IMG/VR virus record: IMGVR_UViG_3300006921_000120
Location: 1-26,417 of that record
Length of the DNA stretch: 26,417 nucleotides
Strand: one strand, 5' to 3'
DNA from: a virus
Of this stretch, positions 3,323 to 10,759 are shown piece after piece. The translations under genes and the position numbers were made by a program. Every line of letters starts with the position of its first letter. Positions within the stretch are counted from its first letter, which is position 1. The notes beneath the pieces are model-generated. The model was given only the letters and a program-made list of their open reading frames with translations, searched no databases and was not told the DNA's origin.

Positions 3323-3390
3323 TATAAGTTAAAAGTTATTTTTGGTGGTATTAATTGAATGATCATATTTCCTATTCTAAACTTAAACAT
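3322..3390 (-). CDS. 22-residue micro-ORF between tail genes
   Basis: This frame of 22 codons plus stop encodes a basic, hydrophobic peptide beginning MFKFRIGNMIIQLIPP. Its ATG overlaps the stop of the upstream tail terminator-like gene as TAATG at 3388-3392. Its own TAA overlaps the ATG of the downstream gp10-like gene as TAATG at 3320-3324. The double overlap fills the whole gap between two tail genes and suggests it is translated, either as a real small protein or as a coupling device. It could also be the remnant of a longer gene. No homology can be judged at this length. Confidence 0.45.
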   Translation of the reverse strand: MFKFRIGNMIIQLIPPKITFNL

Positions 3391-3935
3391 TATTCTACTA
3401 ATCCTTTATAATCTAAATCTGACTTTAATGGGATATTGCAAGATTGATAGTTATTGTCTGCATTCAAAGTAATCTGAAACACCCAACCTGTAAGTAAGTT
3501 GTCGAATCTTTCAGTAAAAGGCTCTAAATTAAATTCTTCCTCAGCAAAGATTATAGGTGCATTGATATCGCTATCTTGTTGGCTTGATTGATAGATACTA
3601 TTCCTAAACATTGATACTATATCTATACTAGTTTGCAATGTTGAAGACAATACCTCTTGCTCATTGTTTAAGAATGCAGCAGACTGAATATTTTGTTCTG
3701 TCCAATCTGCATCTTGACTAACTAAATCCATAACGAATATCTGAAAAGTATAATCTATGGTTGCTCTTTTAGTTGCAACTCCTACAGGGTTTATGTGCAT
3801 GAGTGGAAACAAAGTATTTTTAGATAAATCAATATCATGAATATCTCCTGTGGTTGTAGTAGTTAAATGTTTATGAACTGCACCTACATTCTTTAAAGTA
3901 TTTATTATATTGTTGTAAGTTTTATTTATTATCAT
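3390..3935 (-). CDS. Putative tail terminator-like protein
   Basis: 181 residues. The N-terminal part (I-I-N-K-T-Y-N-N-I-I-N-T-L-K, then V-H-K-H-L-T-T-T-T-T-G-D-I-H-D-I-D-L) and the following P-L-M-H-I-N-P segment match a conserved Bacteroidetes siphophage protein usually placed among neck or tail terminator genes. The middle contains F-Q-I-F-V-M-D, consistent with the mixed alpha/beta fold of terminators. It overlaps the frameshift frame of the tail chaperone by 14 nt and is followed by the micro-ORF and the gp10-like gene, a common tail gene neighbourhood. There is no catalytic motif. The role is an inference. Confidence 0.6.
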   Translation of the reverse strand: MIINKTYNNIINTLKNVGAVHKHLTTTTTGDIHDIDLSKNTLFPLMHINPVGVATKRATIDYTFQIFVMDLVSQDADWTEQNIQSAAFLNNEQEVLSSTLQTSIDIVSMFRNSIYQSSQQDSDINAPIIFAEEEFNLEPFTERFDNLLTGWVFQITLNADNNYQSCNIPLKSDLDYKGLVE

Positions 3936-4182
3936 ATTTCATGTTTACTTTTTGCGATTCATTTAAGTCAACCTCATAAGACATCCAAGTTAAACATTCA
4001 AGCAAACTCAGTTTTGTTATCCTCGCTAAATTAATTATCTCTCCATTAGTTAATCTATACATTATTCCAAACCAACCCCATCTTTTTCCAAAGGCTTCGC
4101 CAGGGTTTCTTGCATTGTCTTTCTCGTCTGTTCCATCAAAGATAATTGCAAAGTCCTCAGTAATCCTTTTCCTAAAGTCCAA
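3922..4182 (-). CDS. Tail assembly chaperone, C-terminal frameshift extension
   Basis: 86 codons in the -1 frame relative to the upstream 213-residue chaperone, overlapping its last 120 nt. The only start-like codon here is TTG inside the run of nine T residues, so this is better read as a frameshift extension than as an independent gene. A -1 slip on T-TTT-TTT at 4182-4188 would join 174 residues of the upstream protein to these 86, giving about 260 residues. The extension has a K-R-W-G-W-F-G-I-M-Y-R-L segment and then a short helical region, like the T-domain partner of Bacteroidetes phage tail chaperones. In long-tailed phages such G/G-T pairs guide tape measure assembly. Confidence 0.7.
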   Translation of the reverse strand: MDFRKRITEDFAIIFDGTDEKDNARNPGEAFGKRWGWFGIMYRLTNGEIINLARITKLSLLECLTWMSYEVDLNESQKVNMKYDNK

Positions 4183-4703
4183 AAAAAAACCATAGCATTT
4201 TGCACTTGTTCTCCACTCATCTCTTTCATTACTTCTCGCCTGACAGATATATTACCATCGTAGGCTGCGATTGAATAAACTCCATTCTTGTCTTCAGTAA
4301 TAGGTCTAAACAAAATAGCCATCAGATCAGGCATACAATTTCTCAAGTCCTCTTTGATCAAAGTTTCTATGTCAGCATATTCTCCTAAAGTTATGTCGTC
4401 TAAGTTAGGGTGGAATCCATACTCAATACCATCTATTGTCATTCGTTTAACTAACTCAGTATTTGCTTCGCTTTGCATCAATGCAATTCTACTTAGTATT
4501 TGTGAAACATCAGACAAGGCTAACTGCTTTATGATTTGAGTAGGAATATCTGTTAGAACTTTTATTGTATCCAATGCTTCATTAGATTTAGTATCAGTCC
4601 TCATTGAAATTAATTCTGCCCATCTTTTTAAATTGACATCAGACCATTTCTTGATCAAGTTGTAATTTTGTTCTTTACCGTCTTTATGGATTTTTAGTTT
4701 CAT
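4062..4703 (-). CDS. Tail assembly chaperone (zero-frame product)
   Basis: 213 residues, opening with M-K-L-K-I-H-K-D-G-K-E and then a W-S-D-V-N-L-K-R-W segment. The central Y-G-F-H-P-N-L-D-D-I-T-L-G-E-Y-A-D stretch is a pattern I know from tail-chaperone-like proteins of Bacteroidetes siphophages. Residues 171-175 (V-F-F-W-T) are encoded over GTT TTT TTT TGG, a run of nine T residues and a proper T-TTT-TTT slippery heptamer. Translation without a slip ends at 4062 in E-K-D-G-V-G-L-E. It lies after the terminase genes and a GC hairpin, and has a TCTATTAT promoter-like motif with 5 nt before the ATG. No tape measure gene is seen directly downstream, which is unusual. Confidence 0.75.
   Translation of the reverse strand: MKLKIHKDGKEQNYNLIKKWSDVNLKRWAELISMRTDTKSNEALDTIKVLTDIPTQIIKQLALSDVSQILSRIALMQSEANTELVKRMTIDGIEYGFHPNLDDITLGEYADIETLIKEDLRNCMPDLMAILFRPITEDKNGVYSIAAYDGNISVRREVMKEMSGEQVQNAMVFFWTLGKGLLRTLQLSLMEQTRKTMQETLAKPLEKDGVGLE
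4181..4189 (-). other. Slippery T9 site for -1 ribosomal frameshift
   Basis: Nine consecutive T residues (minus strand) read in the zero frame as G-TTT-TTT-TTT-GG split GTT TTT TTT TGG, containing the X-XXY-YYZ heptamer T-TTT-TTT. Immediately after it, the -1 frame is open for 86 codons with no ATG. The frame arithmetic fits -1: the chaperone codons start at positions with remainder 2 modulo 3 and the extension at remainder 0. I did not work out a downstream pseudoknot. Transcriptional slippage on the same tract would give the same fusion. Confidence 0.65.
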
Positions 4704-4720
4704 AGTATATAATAGAAAAT
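4704..4720 (-). promoter_or_regulatory. Candidate late promoter (TCTATTAT motif) before tail chaperone
   Basis: On the minus strand the sequence reads TCTATTAT-ATACT-ATG, with TATTAT at 4709-4714 exactly 5 nt before the start codon. The same arrangement occurs before the genes starting at 10759, 23141 and 26331, and a slightly shifted copy occurs before 25588. It follows a GC-rich hairpin downstream of the terminase gene. Read as a -10 element it would place the transcript start at or next to the ATG. A conserved translation-initiation context is the alternative. Confidence 0.45.
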
Positions 4721-4769
4721 TGGTTAGTTTATTTTTTTGTTTATATTTGCCTGAGTTTTCATAAGGATT

Positions 4770-4802
4770 AGGGGGTTTGCTTTGACATTTTGCATTCCCC
4801 CT
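4770..4802 (-). terminator. GC-rich hairpin after terminase, possible terminator
   Basis: An inverted repeat pairs AGGGGG (4770-4775) with CCCCCT (4797-4802), with a further inner T-G-C/G-C-A match, starting four bases past the terminase TAG. It is much more GC-rich than its surroundings. On the minus strand it lacks a run of T after the stem (AATCCTT follows), so it is not a textbook intrinsic terminator. On the plus strand a TTTT does follow. It could end the terminase transcript, stabilise a 3' end, or be bidirectional. Confidence 0.4.
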
Positions 4803-4805
4803 TTT

Positions 4806-6131
4806 CTATTGTAAAAAGTATTTTCCAAAGTTAGAATCTATTTCATAGTACATTCTCATTGCTAAGGCATCTGAGTAATCAGGCGACCTACCAAGTATCG
4901 CTTTCACATTATCTTTAGGAATCATTTGTAGTTTATTATCTTTGTCTGCATCTTTCATTCTCACTTGTTCTAACTCCTCAATGATATTGTTCTTGGTATT
5001 CACATCAGGACAAGTTATTCCTATTTGTCCTTTATTAATTAAGTCTGATAATTTGTAGTAGCATTGAGTTTTTAAATTTTGATAGTTTTCTTTTTTCAAG
5101 GCCCTAGCATTATTTGTGAATCCCTGACATCTTAAGAAATCTTTTGCTCCACCACCTACACCATCTTCATCTATTATAATATTCCTAAGAGGTACTTGGT
5201 TTTCCTGTTGCATAGTTTGAACTTCATCTACTACTTCATTCATTGCAGATTTTAATAGTGTTTTGATTTTCACAACTTGCAATCCATTCCAATATAAGAT
5301 AACTGTTTTATCACTACCAAATCTTGCAACATCAACACTAATGAACTTTTGCCCTGATACTCCTTGTATCTCAAAGAGTTTTATAATCGAATCATAGTCT
5401 ATAAGAGCATCATTGCTTGCATCATACTCCCAATTACCAAAAAGCAATCTTTGTTTTGATAACTCATCTAAAGTTAGTAATTGAGTTTTGTAATACTTAG
5501 ATATATACTCATTGTCATCAACAAGACTCTGAATAAATTTTCTATGAGGTTTTTGCTTACCATCTTTGCTTGGTCTGTAGTATTGAGTATAAACCCAATT
5601 CTTTGCAGGATTGCATGTCATCAACATTTTAGGAATCCTATTATACTGATCAAGTTTATATCTCATTCTACTTGCTACTATGTTTTTTGCTTTTTCAGTT
5701 ATTTGGTTTGCTTCATCAATGAATGCTCCTGTAATTTCAAGTGATCCCAAGTTATCAAAGTTTTTATCTGATGGATATAAGAATAAATCCTTTAGTAGTA
5801 TTTCAGATTTATTAAAAAAGGAAATTATATTACTACCTGCATTGAAGTTATAATCTCGTCCTGCTTTGATGTTCCAAGTTTCGCATACTTCAAAGAAAGT
5901 ATTTAGTGTAGTTTTTTTCAATGAATCAAGTTTACTCCTACCCATCAACCATCTAGTCTTAGGATATTTTATGCACATTAAGATTAACCAAGCACAACCA
6001 ACCCATGACTTCCCACCTCCTGCTGCACCCCCAAATAATACTTCAGTCGTTTCGTTATCGAAAAGATACTCTATTGCTTGTGCCTGAGTATGAGTAAAGT
6101 CAATTGATGTGTAGTCATCTTTAATACTCAA
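4806..6131 (-). CDS. terL: Terminase large subunit
   Basis: 441 residues, the usual size for the packaging motor. The ATPase half has Walker A GGAAGGGKS at about residues 34-42 and a Walker B-like AFIDEA near 135, followed by an S-R-M-R-Y-K segment and a coupling-type M-T-C-N-P-A motif. The nuclease half has S-V-D-V-A-R-F-G-S-D-K-T and I-I-I-D-E-D-G-V-G-G-G, the acidic residues of an RNase H-like headful nuclease. It cuts concatemeric phage DNA and drives it into the prohead through the portal. It overlaps the small subunit gene by 11 nt and lies directly after the DNA-modification operon. It ends at a TAG just before a GC hairpin. Confidence 0.93.
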   Translation of the reverse strand: MSIKDDYTSIDFTHTQAQAIEYLFDNETTEVLFGGAAGGGKSWVGCAWLILMCIKYPKTRWLMGRSKLDSLKKTTLNTFFEVCETWNIKAGRDYNFNAGSNIISFFNKSEILLKDLFLYPSDKNFDNLGSLEITGAFIDEANQITEKAKNIVASRMRYKLDQYNRIPKMLMTCNPAKNWVYTQYYRPSKDGKQKPHRKFIQSLVDDNEYISKYYKTQLLTLDELSKQRLLFGNWEYDASNDALIDYDSIIKLFEIQGVSGQKFISVDVARFGSDKTVILYWNGLQVVKIKTLLKSAMNEVVDEVQTMQQENQVPLRNIIIDEDGVGGGAKDFLRCQGFTNNARALKKENYQNLKTQCYYKLSDLINKGQIGITCPDVNTKNNIIEELEQVRMKDADKDNKLQMIPKDNVKAILGRSPDYSDALAMRMYYEIDSNFGKYFLQ

Positions 6132-6474: not shown

Positions 6475-7288
6475 AGTTTATGATGTTTAAAAATTCTTGT
6501 CTAGTGTTTAAGTCATCTTTAAAAACTCCTATCATCTTTGAAGTTGTTGTCCAAGTGTCATGTTTTTTAACTCCCCTCATATTCATGCATAGATGCTGTG
6601 CTTTCAATGTTACTGCTACACCCAAAGGCTCTAACTCTTTCATAAGTCGTTCTGCAATTTGTGTAGTTATTCTTTCTTGATTCTGTAATCTATTTGCATA
6701 TAAGTCTAATGTTCTCGCTAATTTAGATAATCCAACAATTTTATCTTTTGGTATGTATGCAATATTTGCTACACCAAAGAATGGTGCTATGTGATGTTCG
6801 CATAAACTATAGAATGGTATATTAGTTTGTACTATCATCTCATCAGTTCCCTCTGCATCAAAACAAGTAAAGTTAAATTCTTTAGGAGTTAAAAACTCTC
6901 TCATAAATTTGAGGTATCTTTTAGGAGTTTCTCTTAATCCCTCTCTGTCTGTATCCTCGCCTAGATATTGTAATATGCGAACAAAGTTATCTTCAACAGG
7001 CTCTTCTTTCATTTCCCAAGGAAACACTAACCATTTGTCTTTTAATTCTGTTTCTTTTTGTTTATCGAAAATAGCAACAAAAGGTTTCTTATACTTTGCA
7101 TAATCTTTCCTAGTTTTTCCTGAATCAATTAAGTCATCTACTATTATGTCGCATTCTTCAATACTATCTACAGGATTCAACATTGCAGAAATATATTGTC
7201 CACCTCTCGGCACACCATAATACTTTTTAGATTTGTCTAATTGATTAACTCGATTTTTAATCTCTTTCCAATTTATAAAATATTCCAT
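6461..7288 (-). CDS. folE: Phosphoribosyltransferase-GTP cyclohydrolase I fusion (FolE-like)
   Basis: 275 residues in two parts. Residues 1-92 look like a compact type I phosphoribosyltransferase: Y-G-V-P-R-G-G at 24-30 and the PRPP loop DIIVDDLIDSGKT at 47-59. Residues about 98-275 are GTP cyclohydrolase I, with the zinc-site motif S-L-C163-E-H165-H166-I-A-P-F-F-G and the second cysteine in Q-H-L-C234-M-N-M-R-G. FolE makes 7,8-dihydroneopterin triphosphate from GTP, the first step to preQ0. FolE is normally about 180-220 residues without a PRTase, so the fusion is unusual. It overlaps QueE by 16 nt and the small terminase by 14 nt. What the PRTase does is unknown; nucleobase or GTP salvage to feed FolE is one guess. 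Confidence 0.92.
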   Translation of the reverse strand: MEYFINWKEIKNRVNQLDKSKKYYGVPRGGQYISAMLNPVDSIEECDIIVDDLIDSGKTRKDYAKYKKPFVAIFDKQKETELKDKWLVFPWEMKEEPVEDNFVRILQYLGEDTDREGLRETPKRYLKFMREFLTPKEFNFTCFDAEGTDEMIVQTNIPFYSLCEHHIAPFFGVANIAYIPKDKIVGLSKLARTLDLYANRLQNQERITTQIAERLMKELEPLGVAVTLKAQHLCMNMRGVKKHDTWTTTSKMIGVFKDDLNTRQEFLNIINYGQK

Positions 7289-7890
7289 AGTTTATGATCT
7301 TGCACACTTAGTTTCCATTTAGGATTATCCAAGCATAGATTAATACAATGTAGCACATTGTCATTGTTTATAGTATAACCATCTGAATGAGGACTAACCC
7401 AATAGTTTTCTGCTTCAATTTTAGGATTAGGTATCTCTTGTCCTTTGTGTCTTACATATCGCAACTCATGTACTTTAGTATCTTTAAAATTTTTCTTAAT
7501 GACATGTTCTGCAACTTTAGGACTTATGCATATAAAATCTATACCATCAGGACATGAATGTAAGCCTGAAGTTTCAATTGCTTGAAAATATCCTTTGTCT
7601 TTAAACCATTGAACTATTGGAACATTCAATTGATCAAGTGGCTCTCCACCTGTCCAAGTTATTTCCTTACAATCCTTATTTGCTTCAAGCATCCAAGTAT
7701 GTATTTTTTCTAATTCCCACTCAGACCCTGATTCAAACTCAGTATCGCATTTAATCCCTGAAGCATAACATGCTCCTTGTGCTTTGCATCCTTGCAAACG
7801 AATAAAAAAAGTTGGAGTGCCTGATCTCTTGCCCTCGCCTTGTAGTGAATAAAATATCTCACTCACATTTAAAGTATTATTTTGTTCCAT
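7273..7890 (-). CDS. queE: 7-carboxy-7-deazaguanine synthase QueE (radical SAM)
   Basis: 205 residues. The start V-S-E-I-F-Y-S-L-Q-G-E-G-K-R-S-G-T-P-T-F-F-I-R is the classic QueE opening, and T-W-T-G-G-E-P-L-D near residue 80 is the SAM-binding motif. QueE converts carboxytetrahydropterin (CPH4) to 7-carboxy-7-deazaguanine. The iron-sulfur cysteines are oddly spaced: C35-x5-C41-x6-C48 followed by D-T-E-F, instead of CX3CX2C or CX14CX2C. The last cysteine plus D-T aligns with other QueE proteins, so the second ligand has moved. It overlaps QueD by 14 nt upstream and the FolE fusion downstream. Confidence 0.92.
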   Translation of the reverse strand: MEQNNTLNVSEIFYSLQGEGKRSGTPTFFIRLQGCKAQGACYASGIKCDTEFESGSEWELEKIHTWMLEANKDCKEITWTGGEPLDQLNVPIVQWFKDKGYFQAIETSGLHSCPDGIDFICISPKVAEHVIKKNFKDTKVHELRYVRHKGQEIPNPKIEAENYWVSPHSDGYTINNDNVLHCINLCLDNPKWKLSVQDHKLWNIL

Positions 7891-8272
7891 TGTAAATTAT
7901 TTTTGAAGTTTCTGTTTCTGCTAACTCGATTTGTACTATTGGTAGTTCTCTTTTGATTTGTACGAAAATCCAAATCGCCATGTTCTCGGCACTAGTATCA
8001 AAAGGCAATTCTATGAAAGGCTCATTGTCTAGTTTTAGTAATGTGCATAGAGGATCTTTTTCATGCAGTAAAAAATAATGATCGTATTGCTTGACAATTG
8101 GCTCTACTATTTTATCAATGTCTCCAAATAACATAGTAACACCATCTTTCATTTTATCAAACTCAAAAGTACATTTTATCTTATAAGTATGCCCATGAAT
8201 CCTACCGCACTTCTCATCTGCTTTCTTGTTTCTATGTGCAGCATAAAAGTGATATTTTTTTTCTATTTTCAT
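7877..8272 (-). CDS. queD: 6-carboxytetrahydropterin synthase QueD
   Basis: 131 residues, typical QueD/PTPS size. Zinc ligands H13 (Y-A-A-H), H26 and H28 (C-G-R-I-H-G-H-T-Y) are present, C22 is the expected catalytic cysteine, and D-T-S-A-E-N-M-A is the family's substrate-site motif. It converts dihydroneopterin triphosphate from FolE to 6-carboxy-5,6,7,8-tetrahydropterin. The gene overlaps the upstream dehydrogenase-like gene by 4 nt and QueE by 14 nt. Gene order and context (QueC, DpdA, QueE, FolE) make the deazaguanine role much more likely than biopterin synthesis. Confidence 0.93.
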   Translation of the reverse strand: MKIEKKYHFYAAHRNKKADEKCGRIHGHTYKIKCTFEFDKMKDGVTMLFGDIDKIVEPIVKQYDHYFLLHEKDPLCTLLKLDNEPFIELPFDTSAENMAIWIFVQIKRELPIVQIELAETETSKIIYNGTK

Positions 8273-8958
8273 TTTAATTTAGTTGATTCAAATAATCTTT
8301 TCTCCTCATTGTAGTTAGAAACTATTTGATGTTTATAATTCTTAAGATATTTTAGATACCATAAAACAACATATCCCATTCCATACTGAGTATAGCCTTT
8401 TTTGTGAATGATCGCATAAGGAATTTCTGCAACCTCATCAACATTAACTTCTTCTTCAGTATAGATATTCAAATTATGTTGTCCAAGTATGTCTTGTGTA
8501 ATACCTATTGACTTTGCTCTCATATTGTCTAAGGCGATTCCTAAGGCACTTATTTTGTTTTTTGGTATGCTTGTATTGGAGAGCAGATAATGCGCTAAGA
8601 TGTCATCAGGATTAGTTATAACAATCCATTCTCCTTTCATGTCATTTCTAATGATTGAATCAAGATACTTTTTATTGCGATCAATAAGATTAATTCTTTG
8701 CTCTCCGTCTAATTGTTTTACTCCCCCTGCTATTATATTTATATCTGCATCAGGATAATTATTATAAAAATAAGAAGTTATTTTGGTTGTTGATGTGAAA
8801 GGAGCATGGTTAATAAAATCTAATTTAATCCCTTCAATGTCTTGGTTAGTTATAAGATTAACTTTACAAGCAAGGCCCTCATAAATTATAAGATTACAAA
8901 TATTTAAACCAATATTTCCTGCTCCAAAGATATTGATGTTTTTAAATCTCATAGCCAA
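8269..8958 (-). CDS. Lactate/malate dehydrogenase-like NAD-binding protein
   Basis: 229 residues, about 80-100 shorter than cellular LDH/MDH, yet aligning by motif along most of its length. Rossmann motif I-F-G-A-G-N-I-G is at 10-17, and D-A-D-I-N-I-I-A-G-G at 70-79. Q82 and R88 lie in K-Q-L-D-G-E-Q-R, T-N-P-D-D-I-L is at 115-121, L-D144-N-M-R147 follows, and H161 is in G-Q-H. These match LDH Q102, R109, D168, R171 and H195, so the catalytic set looks complete, and Gln at position 102 is the lactate-type rather than malate-type residue. It sits between QueC and QueD with overlaps of 17 and 4 nt, so it is part of the deazaguanine operon. I know of no described role for such an enzyme there. 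It may modify the deazaguanine side chain, regenerate a cofactor or tweak host metabolism. Confidence 0.8.
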   Translation of the reverse strand: MAMRFKNINIFGAGNIGLNICNLIIYEGLACKVNLITNQDIEGIKLDFINHAPFTSTTKITSYFYNNYPDADINIIAGGVKQLDGEQRINLIDRNKKYLDSIIRNDMKGEWIVITNPDDILAHYLLSNTSIPKNKISALGIALDNMRAKSIGITQDILGQHNLNIYTEEEVNVDEVAEIPYAIIHKKGYTQYGMGYVVLWYLKYLKNYKHQIVSNYNEEKRLFESTKLK

Positions 8959-9511
8959 ACATTTTAAAAGTATCTATTTTCTTTTTGCATGGAATACATT
9001 CTAGGCATTCTTGAGAATCTTTAGGAAAATGACATGAAAAACATTCTTGGTATGCTTTTTCTATATCGCCACCAAGTTTTAGATATTCATTCAATATCTC
9101 AATTTTACTTTTGTCTTGGTAAGGTATCTCAATTTTTATTTTCTTTGCAACTAATTCTTTTGTCAAGACAGAATTAAAAAGTTTTTGAGTTGCTTTAATA
9201 AATTTTTCTTTTTTATCATAGTGTAAATCATCTGCAGTAGTTCCTAAGATTATAGTATCAGCATAATTAACTGCAATAGATAAAAAGATTAAATTCCTCA
9301 AAGGAATAGTTAAAAGATTATCGTCTTGCACATATTCAGCCAAGTCTATTTTTTTTATAATGACATCTTTTGGTAACCTTTTCTTTTCTTGTTCGTTTTG
9401 TTTAGTGCCTATATCAAAGAATAGTTTATGATCAGGTTTTAGAATCTTATCAATTAAGTAAGAATCCATACCACCACTATACAATAAAACTTTAGAGATT
9501 TTCCTCGGCAT
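8942..9511 (-). CDS. queC: 7-cyano-7-deazaguanine synthase QueC
   Basis: 189 residues. The PP-loop Y-S-G-G-M-D-S is at 11-17 for ATP. A zinc site C160-x8-C169-x2-C172-x2-C175 near the C-terminus matches QueC exactly, with an extra C157. L-G-T-T-A-D-D near residue 90 is another family motif. It converts 7-carboxy-7-deazaguanine plus ammonia to preQ0 using ATP. It is slightly shorter than the usual 220-230 residues. It overlaps DpdA by 20 nt upstream and the dehydrogenase-like gene by 17 nt downstream. Confidence 0.92.
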   Translation of the reverse strand: MPRKISKVLLYSGGMDSYLIDKILKPDHKLFFDIGTKQNEQEKKRLPKDVIIKKIDLAEYVQDDNLLTIPLRNLIFLSIAVNYADTIILGTTADDLHYDKKEKFIKATQKLFNSVLTKELVAKKIKIEIPYQDKSKIEILNEYLKLGGDIEKAYQECFSCHFPKDSQECLECIPCKKKIDTFKMFGYEI

Positions 9512-10232
9512 ATTTTTGAAATTTATTCCATTCTTTAAAATTATGAATAAGCATCTCTAGTTTTTTATCCTCTCTAACTTTCATGCCTATTCCTACTGCA
9601 GTTCTTTTTTTAATTTTTGTTCCATCAAACCATTGATACTCTCCAAACCTACCTGCATTTAACCAAGTTGTCGAATCAACAGAATACCATTTTATTTTTT
9701 TAAGCCAATCCATTTTAGTAAATCCTAAACCATGCACTTTTGTTCCTTTTTTATTCGCATAGTCAACCATCATTCGCAAGTATTTATATTCTTTGCCTGA
9801 AACACCTGCAGAAACTAATCCACCTATTGCAACATAGTCATACTCCTCAACTAATTTATACCAATAGTCAATTCCCCTAGATTTATGCCAAACAGGAATA
9901 GTTGGTTTACCTATTCTTTGTTCGATTTTATCTCTTATGATTTCAACTTTATCTAAACCAATGATCGAATCTATATCTAGTTCAAAAAAGTAATTTTGTT
10001 TTGTCTTTTCAATGAATGAACAATACTTATCTACATATAAATCCCAATCTGCTTTTTTACCTCGCAAAAAACTAAATGCTCCTGAGTCTAAGATATGTTT
10101 GTCATGCAATACATAGTCGCCATACTTCCCATTCTTATGCTCATAAAAAGAACTTAATATCAAAGTGTCTTTATATTCTGCCTTTGAAATTTTATTCTCA
10201 ATTAGTTTAAATCCTGCTAGATAGATTTTCAT
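9492..10232 (-). CDS. dpdA: DpdA-like 7-deazaguanine DNA transglycosylase
   Basis: 246 residues, the size of phage DpdA proteins, which are compact relatives of tRNA-guanine transglycosylases. Seen motifs are L-D49-S-G-A-F-S-F-L, W-H-K-S-R-G near 115, V-A-I-G-G-L-V near 134, V-H-G-L-G-F-T near 165 and S-V-D-S-T-T-W-L near 185. They mark the TIM-barrel substrate and active-site positions of the family. It would exchange guanine in phage DNA for preQ0 or a derivative. The gene overlaps the ParB-like gene by 4 nt and QueC by 20 nt. An archaeosine/queuosine tRNA enzyme is less likely because it lacks the tRNA-binding extensions and zinc site. Confidence 0.88.
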   Translation of the reverse strand: MKIYLAGFKLIENKISKAEYKDTLILSSFYEHKNGKYGDYVLHDKHILDSGAFSFLRGKKADWDLYVDKYCSFIEKTKQNYFFELDIDSIIGLDKVEIIRDKIEQRIGKPTIPVWHKSRGIDYWYKLVEEYDYVAIGGLVSAGVSGKEYKYLRMMVDYANKKGTKVHGLGFTKMDWLKKIKWYSVDSTTWLNAGRFGEYQWFDGTKIKKRTAVGIGMKVREDKKLEMLIHNFKEWNKFQKYAEENL

Positions 10233-10759
10233 TTAGTTAAAAGATTATAGATTGCATTTTCTTTAGTTCCCCCTATCTCTGCAAGTTTATCTATTATGAT
10301 CGCATACTCATCTTGAGTATATTCTAAAACTATTTTTTGAATGTCAGAAATTTCCTCGTCTTTATCTTCAAAAAAGTCCCCATAATTTTCCTCAGTCGGT
10401 TGCCATACATCCATTCCCCATTCTTTCAGTTGAACTTCATCCCATTTATTTGCAAGAATATCCCACTCCCATTCTCCAAAACCAACATTGTCTTTGATTA
10501 TAAACTCATCTTTTTGTTCTTCAGTTAGATTCTCTACTTTTTCAATCCATACTTCTTTTAATCCTGCTTCTTTACATGCTCTCAATCGCATGTTACCACC
10601 TAACACTACATTGTTCTCATCAACAACTATAGGTCTTATTTGCAACATTTGAGGAAATTCTTTAATTGATGTAACTAATTTCTCAAATTTAGTGTCTTTA
10701 ATAATTCTTGGATTATTAGCATTTTGGTTTATAATGTTTATCTTAACTTTCTGTACCAT
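10229..10759 (-). CDS. ParB-like nuclease-domain protein
   Basis: 176 residues. Residues 1-100 form a ParB/Srx domain: N-N-P-R-I-I-K-D near 15, P-Q-M-L-Q-I-R-P-I-V-V-D near 36, and the signature G-G-N-M-R-L-R-A-C near 54. The rest (about 100-176) is acidic and has a helical region but no clear second domain such as a methylase. In phages this domain is often carried next to DNA-modifying enzymes. Here it starts the deazaguanine operon and overlaps dpdA by 4 nt, which suggests a DNA-binding or targeting role for DpdA. TCTATTAT and 5 nt precede its ATG, so the operon probably begins here. Confidence 0.82.
   Translation of the reverse strand: MVQKVKINIINQNANNPRIIKDTKFEKLVTSIKEFPQMLQIRPIVVDENNVVLGGNMRLRACKEAGLKEVWIEKVENLTEEQKDEFIIKDNVGFGEWEWDILANKWDEVQLKEWGMDVWQPTEENYGDFFEDKDEEISDIQKIVLEYTQDEYAIIIDKLAEIGGTKENAIYNLLTK

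Follow-up and report, generated by a model that had tools for sequence, protein, structure and literature searches.

A shortened lactate dehydrogenase-family gene paired with a divergent queC in phage dpdA cassettes

Deazaguanine cassette of the window and its LDH-like gene

The window, i.e., the whole 26,417-nt stretch analyzed here (IMG/VR record IMGVR_UViG_3300006921_000120), belongs to a phage whose TerL and portal relatives are found in flavobacterial phages (Flavobacterium phage 11b, Cellulophaga phi10:1 and a Nonlabens phage). It contains a deazaguanine cassette with dpdA, folE, queD, queE and queC all present and, as the initial annotation had noted, with a lactate dehydrogenase (LDH)-like gene between queC and queD (Table 1).

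Table 1. Genes of the deazaguanine cassette and assigned residues of the LDH-like protein
Feature	Position	Strand	Remarks
ParB-like gene	10229..10759	minus	constant first gene of the cassette
dpdA-type DNA guanine transglycosylase	9492..10232	minus	phrog_887, 1.7e-52
Divergent queC (PF06508)	8942..9511	minus	partner of the LDH-like gene
LDH-like gene	8269..8952	minus	227 aa from ATG at 8952
GxGxxG dinucleotide-binding motif (G12-A-G-N-I-G17)	8908..8925	minus	alignment
Q82...R88 = LDH Q102...R109, substrate loop	8695..8715	minus	LDH-type Gln, not MDH-type Arg
N116 = N140	8611..8613	minus	alignment with cellular LDHs
D144...R147 = D168...R171	8518..8529	minus	alignment
ILGQHN, H161 = probable H195 equivalent	8473..8490	minus	family motif GEHGD
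T190 = T246	8389..8391	minus	alignment
queD (PTPS/CPH4 synthase family)	7877..8272	minus	ATGA overlap with the LDH-like gene
queE (radical SAM)	7273..7890	minus	Cys spacing CX5CX6C
folE fused to N-terminal phosphoribosyltransferase-like segment	6461..7288	minus	

The window shares with phage dpdA cassettes (PMC6884629) the five gene types and the order parB-dpdA-queC-queD-queE-folE, which is that of dozens of related contigs, and differs from them in the additional gene, which was detected in the phage group of the window and in one divergent phage described below (L293) only. The phage dpdA cassettes described in PMC6884629 carry amidotransferases or QueF-type enzymes, and a dehydrogenase is nowhere mentioned in that work.

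Translation of the LDH-like gene from the ATG, whose position is conserved in an 81%-identical copy on contig L003, yields 227 residues; an alternative TTG start at 8958 would give 229. Depending on the start, the gene overlaps queC by 11-17 nt, and it overlaps queD by 4 nt. The previously annotated ORF with overlaps on both sides is confirmed; it lies on the minus strand. Near-identical copies are present in L001 and L002. A chimera or assembly error was ruled out, since the junctions are common to two 99.9% identical contigs and one contig with ca. 90% DNA identity. Comparison with the L003 copy gave dN of 0.116, dS of 0.626 and ω of 0.185; the frame is open, the overlaps are conserved and the QDILGQHNLNIYT block is invariant. 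Other cassette genes have ω of 0.03-0.11 in the same comparison, making the LDH-like gene the fastest evolving of the cassette. It is a functional gene under purifying selection.

Several features of the neighboring genes can be mentioned separately. QueE of the window and of most cassettes has the CX5CX6C spacing (GCKAQGACYASGIKCDTEFESG) instead of the usual CX3CX2C, and another QueE group (L006, L025 and L036) carries GCNLMCGG...WRCDT. The phosphoribosyltransferase-like segment of FolE is ca. 90 residues long and is common to many flavophage cassettes, while shorter FolE versions (ca. 181-197 aa) are devoid of it. Small membrane proteins of 75-84 aa are encoded between queD and queE in two contigs (L062:3505-3759 and L091:2227-2454). 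A second dpdA type lies after folE in the related contig L192 (2892-4711), preceded by a gene that by eye resembles a glycosyltransferase, an arrangement that suggests further base tailoring.

Fold of the LDH-like protein, and residues kept and lost

The Pfam Ldh_1_N domain was detected in the window protein with an E-value of 9.1e-17 (61.8 bits; gathering score 27) and scored 57.2 bits in the L003 protein and 97.4 bits in the L293 homologue. Ldh_1_C produced no match in the window or L003 protein at E<=1 and was present in L293 (31.1 bits; cut-off 22.6). The best NCBIfam model for the window protein, L-LDH (TIGR01771), scored 88 bits, far under its cut-off of 303.55. Sequence matches in the PDB were all LDHs or malate dehydrogenases (MDHs), with LDH 4lmr at 3.3e-20. 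An AlphaFold model built on a 51-row alignment had a mean pLDDT of 83, and the best 50 Foldseek matches to it in the PDB were all LDHs, with query TM-scores of ca. 0.7-0.76 (LDH match at 4.6e-13, probability 1.00). The same picture was obtained with the L003 protein. In both models the Rossmann domain is confident, the C-terminal part has low confidence, the C-terminus looks disordered, and beta strands are absent beyond residue 136 (139 in L003). A BFVD fold search returned nothing convincing. The Pfam, PDB and Foldseek matches rule out chance Rossmann similarity, and the fold search did not place the protein outside the LDH/MDH family, so that the LDH-type fold claimed earlier is borne out. 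By its N-terminal domain and predicted fold, the protein is a member of the LDH superfamily. Because it has no Ldh_1_C match and stays below the L-LDH cut-off, the name lactate dehydrogenase should be avoided.

Residues were assigned by alignment with 49 cellular LDHs. Compared with L-LDH (PF00056 and PF02866; PDB 4lmr, 6j9s), the window protein shares the NAD-binding Rossmann domain with GxGxxG, the predicted fold and the equivalents of Q102, R109, N140, D168, R171 and T246, the latter six being kept despite an overall identity of ca. 28%. In total, 27 of the 43 near-invariant columns are kept. The differences are the length (227 aa vs. ca. 315), deletions of the R171-H195 and H195-T246 segments and of the C-terminal sheet, with loss of its conserved columns, replacement of GEHGD by GQHN, i.e., loss of its E, G and D, and loss of the acidic residue that ends beta-2 and contacts NAD ribose (an Asp in each of the 49 cellular sequences, replaced by Asn or Lys in window-type proteins). 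The initial annotation spoke of intact catalytic residues. This stands for the six equivalents listed above and probably for H161, and it does not stand for GEHGD, the ribose Asp and the C-terminal domain, which is mostly missing. Since GQHN is present and the ribose Asp is replaced, catalysis may be lost.

Equating H161 with the catalytic H195 is the weakest of the residue assignments. MAFFT and hhalign both align the two, phmmer places the His elsewhere, and a motif shuffle test favors the equivalence only weakly (p of ca. 0.02-0.13). With a profile HMM of cellular LDHs, the alignment is limited to positions 4-157 and 211-253, which do not include the His region, and AlphaFold models the segment around ILGQHN as coil with a confidence of 55-67. 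The equivalence is probable because in L293, where GEHGDS is intact, the R171-H195 spacing (19) lies between that of cellular LDHs (23) and that of the window protein (13). An alternative reading, in which H161 pairs instead with the PHNIH His and no catalytic His is left, lost weight with the hhalign and MAFFT alignments and with the intermediate form in L293.

Distribution of the LDH gene and its association with a divergent queC

A DpdA scan retrieved ca. 80 loci with the order parB-dpdA-queC-queD-queE-folE, and none outside the window's own group had an LDH gene. Scans with QueE and QueC profiles added ca. 100 loci with one new case, L293 (IMG/VR 3300038307_000128). A PF00056 search of 50 cassette records found the three window-type contigs only, and 50 further records yielded only L293, so that the domain is present in 4 of 100 records, each time in the queC-queD slot. 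No LDH was found in ca. 140 other cassette loci. Two LDH-bearing cassette lineages were thus found, the window group and L293; the PF00056 and ORF surveys rule out a wide spread of LDH genes near dpdA.

In L293, a divergent phage, queC (3965-4567) overlaps the LDH gene (4548-5408), which is followed after a 28-nt gap, without overlap, by queD and then by queE and folE. The suggested search near dpdA in other phages therefore did reveal a recurrence in the same slot. The L293 protein (284-286 aa) is intermediate in length between cellular and window LDHs, has both Pfam LDH domains, keeps GEHGDS, D168 and R171, and has Ser at the T246 position. Its H195-T246 spacing is 34, as compared to 47-55 in cellular LDHs and 28 in the window. 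The shortened length had been taken as a hint of a new subfamily, and the homologue and the graded spacings agree with this. In a phylogenetic tree, the three cassette LDHs group with 89/90 support on very long branches; a single origin of the window-type and L293 proteins is likely, with moderate, not strong, support. Cellular LDHs, L293 and the window would form a three-point series along which an LDH has been pared down within a DNA-modification operon.

Tblastn matches in INPHARED and PLSDB were ordinary full-length bacterial LDHs, many of them in unverified metagenomic "phage" bins. Scanning a genome collection with the two phage LDH sequences revealed no cellular relative, and a mixed profile retrieved only standard-length LDHs, mainly of Bacillota, with 24-36% identity; no donor can therefore be named. 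The truncation of the window protein is severe and has no like among ca. 80 cellular LDHs.

The QueC protein of the window shares with canonical QueC and the repurposed family members QatC and Cap9 (PF06508; motifs as defined in PMC13329287) the SGGxDS, PxRN and Cx8CxxCxxC motifs (SGGMDS at 9461-9478, IPLRN, and the Cys motif at 8987-9034, CHFPKDSQECLECIPC). Unlike these proteins, it has neither YxQxHxxE nor YPDC and is paired with an LDH-like protein; its score against TIGR00364 is 45.5 bits (cut-off 150.3). Both motifs are also absent from the QueCs of L003, L293, L008 and L031, and YPDC is present in those of L016, L077, L090 and L057. In E. coli QueC, both motifs are needed for preQ0 formation, and mutations of their tyrosines inactivate the enzyme, as does Y189A in the zinc region (PMC13329287). 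In LDH-linked QueCs, SCH stands in place of the SCY that L008 and L031 have retained. QueC relatives have been repurposed as carboxydeazaguanylation ligases (PMC13329287). The divergent QueCs of L008 and L031 occur without an LDH gene. Since the motif loss is common to these cassettes, it preceded the link with LDH, and LDH is not needed for retention of this QueC type.

The QueCs of LDH-bearing phages form a clade with 100/96 support. Between the window and L293, QueC is 61% identical, whereas DpdA, QueD, QueE and FolE are 25-48% identical (QueD 25%). Conversely, between the window and the LDH-less cassette L016, dpdA, queD, queE and folE are 53-76% identical and queC only 31%. Near relatives of the window phage (L195 and L196; TerL 82-83%) have a QueC-like protein of 141 aa and lack an LDH gene. 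These comparisons are most simply explained if queC and the LDH gene have been inherited or exchanged as a pair, behaving as a two-gene module, and if in the window this pair stands where relatives have a different queC. Such pairwise inheritance speaks for a functional link of the two proteins. Because the pairing recurs in a distantly related phage, the LDH-like gene is probably a dedicated helper of the deazaguanine pathway rather than a stray gene.

Other variants were seen in the queC slot. The 141-aa protein of L195 (3233-3658) and L196 (1207-1632) is devoid of the C-terminal half, and the QueD of these contigs looks unrelated (34%). Most QueCs of L016, L020, L025, L036, L049 and many other cassettes have TDYNG...NEWG...YYEAK instead of the zinc motif Cx8CxxCxxC; the L016 protein, the only one of these included in the alignment, has retained YPDC, opposite to the window QueC. 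In six contigs (L015:6899-7639, L030:5852-6622, L032:6753-7493, L035:1581-2321, L074:6897-7637 and L076:1127-1867), a PP-loop QueC-like domain without the zinc site follows an N-terminal membrane domain that looks YdjM-like.

Possible roles of the LDH-like protein

The initial annotation knew of no 7-deazaguanine system with an LDH/MDH-type enzyme, and our literature searches combining LDH with deazaguanine or phage terms likewise found nothing relevant. To our knowledge, all known phage 7-deazaguanine chemistry relies on FolE, QueD, QueE and QueC together with transferases, amidotransferases and QueF-type reductases. A decarboxylase, a formyltransferase and a methyltransferase were reportedly added to this list by Cui et al. 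in 2023. A dehydrogenase-family gene travelling with a QueC devoid of canonical substrate motifs points to an unrecognized step, possibly leading to a new DNA base.

We tentatively propose, giving it somewhat less than an even chance, that a phage-captured, progressively shortened LDH-family protein and a divergent QueC form a two-gene module that handles 7-carboxy-7-deazaguanine (CDG) in the dpdA cassette. In at least two phage lineages, the module would have moved into, or persisted in, dpdA cassettes that are otherwise of the common type, and in the window it would stand in for the resident queC. CDG would still be made by FolE, QueD and QueE. The QueC variant, in which the ATP loop, the RN motif and the zinc site are kept and two canonical substrate-site motifs are lost, would activate CDG and most likely process it jointly with the LDH-like protein. 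The latter could bind NAD(P)(H) via its intact Rossmann domain, use the conserved Q102/R109/R171/T246 residues to hold a carboxylate, and perform or gate hydride transfer on a pathway compound at the QueC stage. DpdA would insert the final base into DNA, and its side chain may differ from the preQ0 nitrile. A more far-reaching version, which we consider rather unlikely, is that a neofunctionalized QueC, together with an NAD(H) protein derived from LDH, constitutes a transferable two-gene module converting CDG to a 7-deazaguanine derivative new to DNA, e.g., one with a reduced or conjugated side chain.

A joint role with QueC does not have to be catalytic. The LDH-like protein may be a structural or regulatory NAD-binding subunit of the divergent QueC that, for example, senses NAD(H) or shapes the active site, a possibility to be taken seriously, albeit on the unlikely side. 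Loss of the C-domain sheet, of GEHGD and of the ribose-binding Asp fits it, as do the N-terminal domain being the best kept part and the tight overlap and co-inheritance with queC, but it does not account well for the retention of all six LDH-type residues at such low identity or of GEHGDS in L293. Coupling to the other neighbor, queD, by ATGA in the window would instead suit a carboxypterin reductase that delivers hydride to C6=N5 of oxidized 6-carboxy-dihydropterin and so restores the QueD product for QueE, the C-domain deletion opening a pterin pocket. Conceptually, a carboxylate beside a C=N bond agrees with LDH chemistry. However, the module tracks queC and not queD, QueD being only 25% identical between the window and L293, and in L293 the LDH gene and queD are separated; such a repair role is very improbable.

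Other explanations place the protein outside the pathway. It could be an auxiliary LDH of general redox or host metabolism that acts on pyruvate/lactate or on the NAD balance and is located in the cassette by chance, for which the unrelated temperate phage contig L187, with a full-length LDH and a lactate permease, offers a parallel. The identical slot and queC lineage in two distant phages and the unmatched truncation speak against it, and we consider it quite unlikely; the link to one queC lineage and the mosaic origin likewise favor a pathway role over the earlier suggestion of an effect on NAD balance in the infected cell. The Rossmann domain and helices alpha2G/alpha3G, which in the LDH family include dimer contacts, are the pieces retained here, so a decoy forming mixed oligomers with host LDH/MDH and altering host metabolism can be imagined, but the gene location and the module behavior point to the deazaguanine pathway, and this option has hardly any probability. 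Finally, the large deletions and the highest ω of the cassette might indicate a decaying, functionless remnant. This is also very improbable given the frame open in two species, ω well below 1, the conserved overlaps and the invariant QDILGQHNLNIYT block.

The L187 genes (3390-5882 of IMG/VR contig 3300013901_000032) lie beside a serine recombinase. Their LDH, while also of the LDH family on a viral contig, differs from the window protein in being full length, having GEHGD intact and adjoining a permease, with no deazaguanine genes in the stretch examined. They may be metabolic cargo of a lysogenic phage or part of flanking bacterial DNA.
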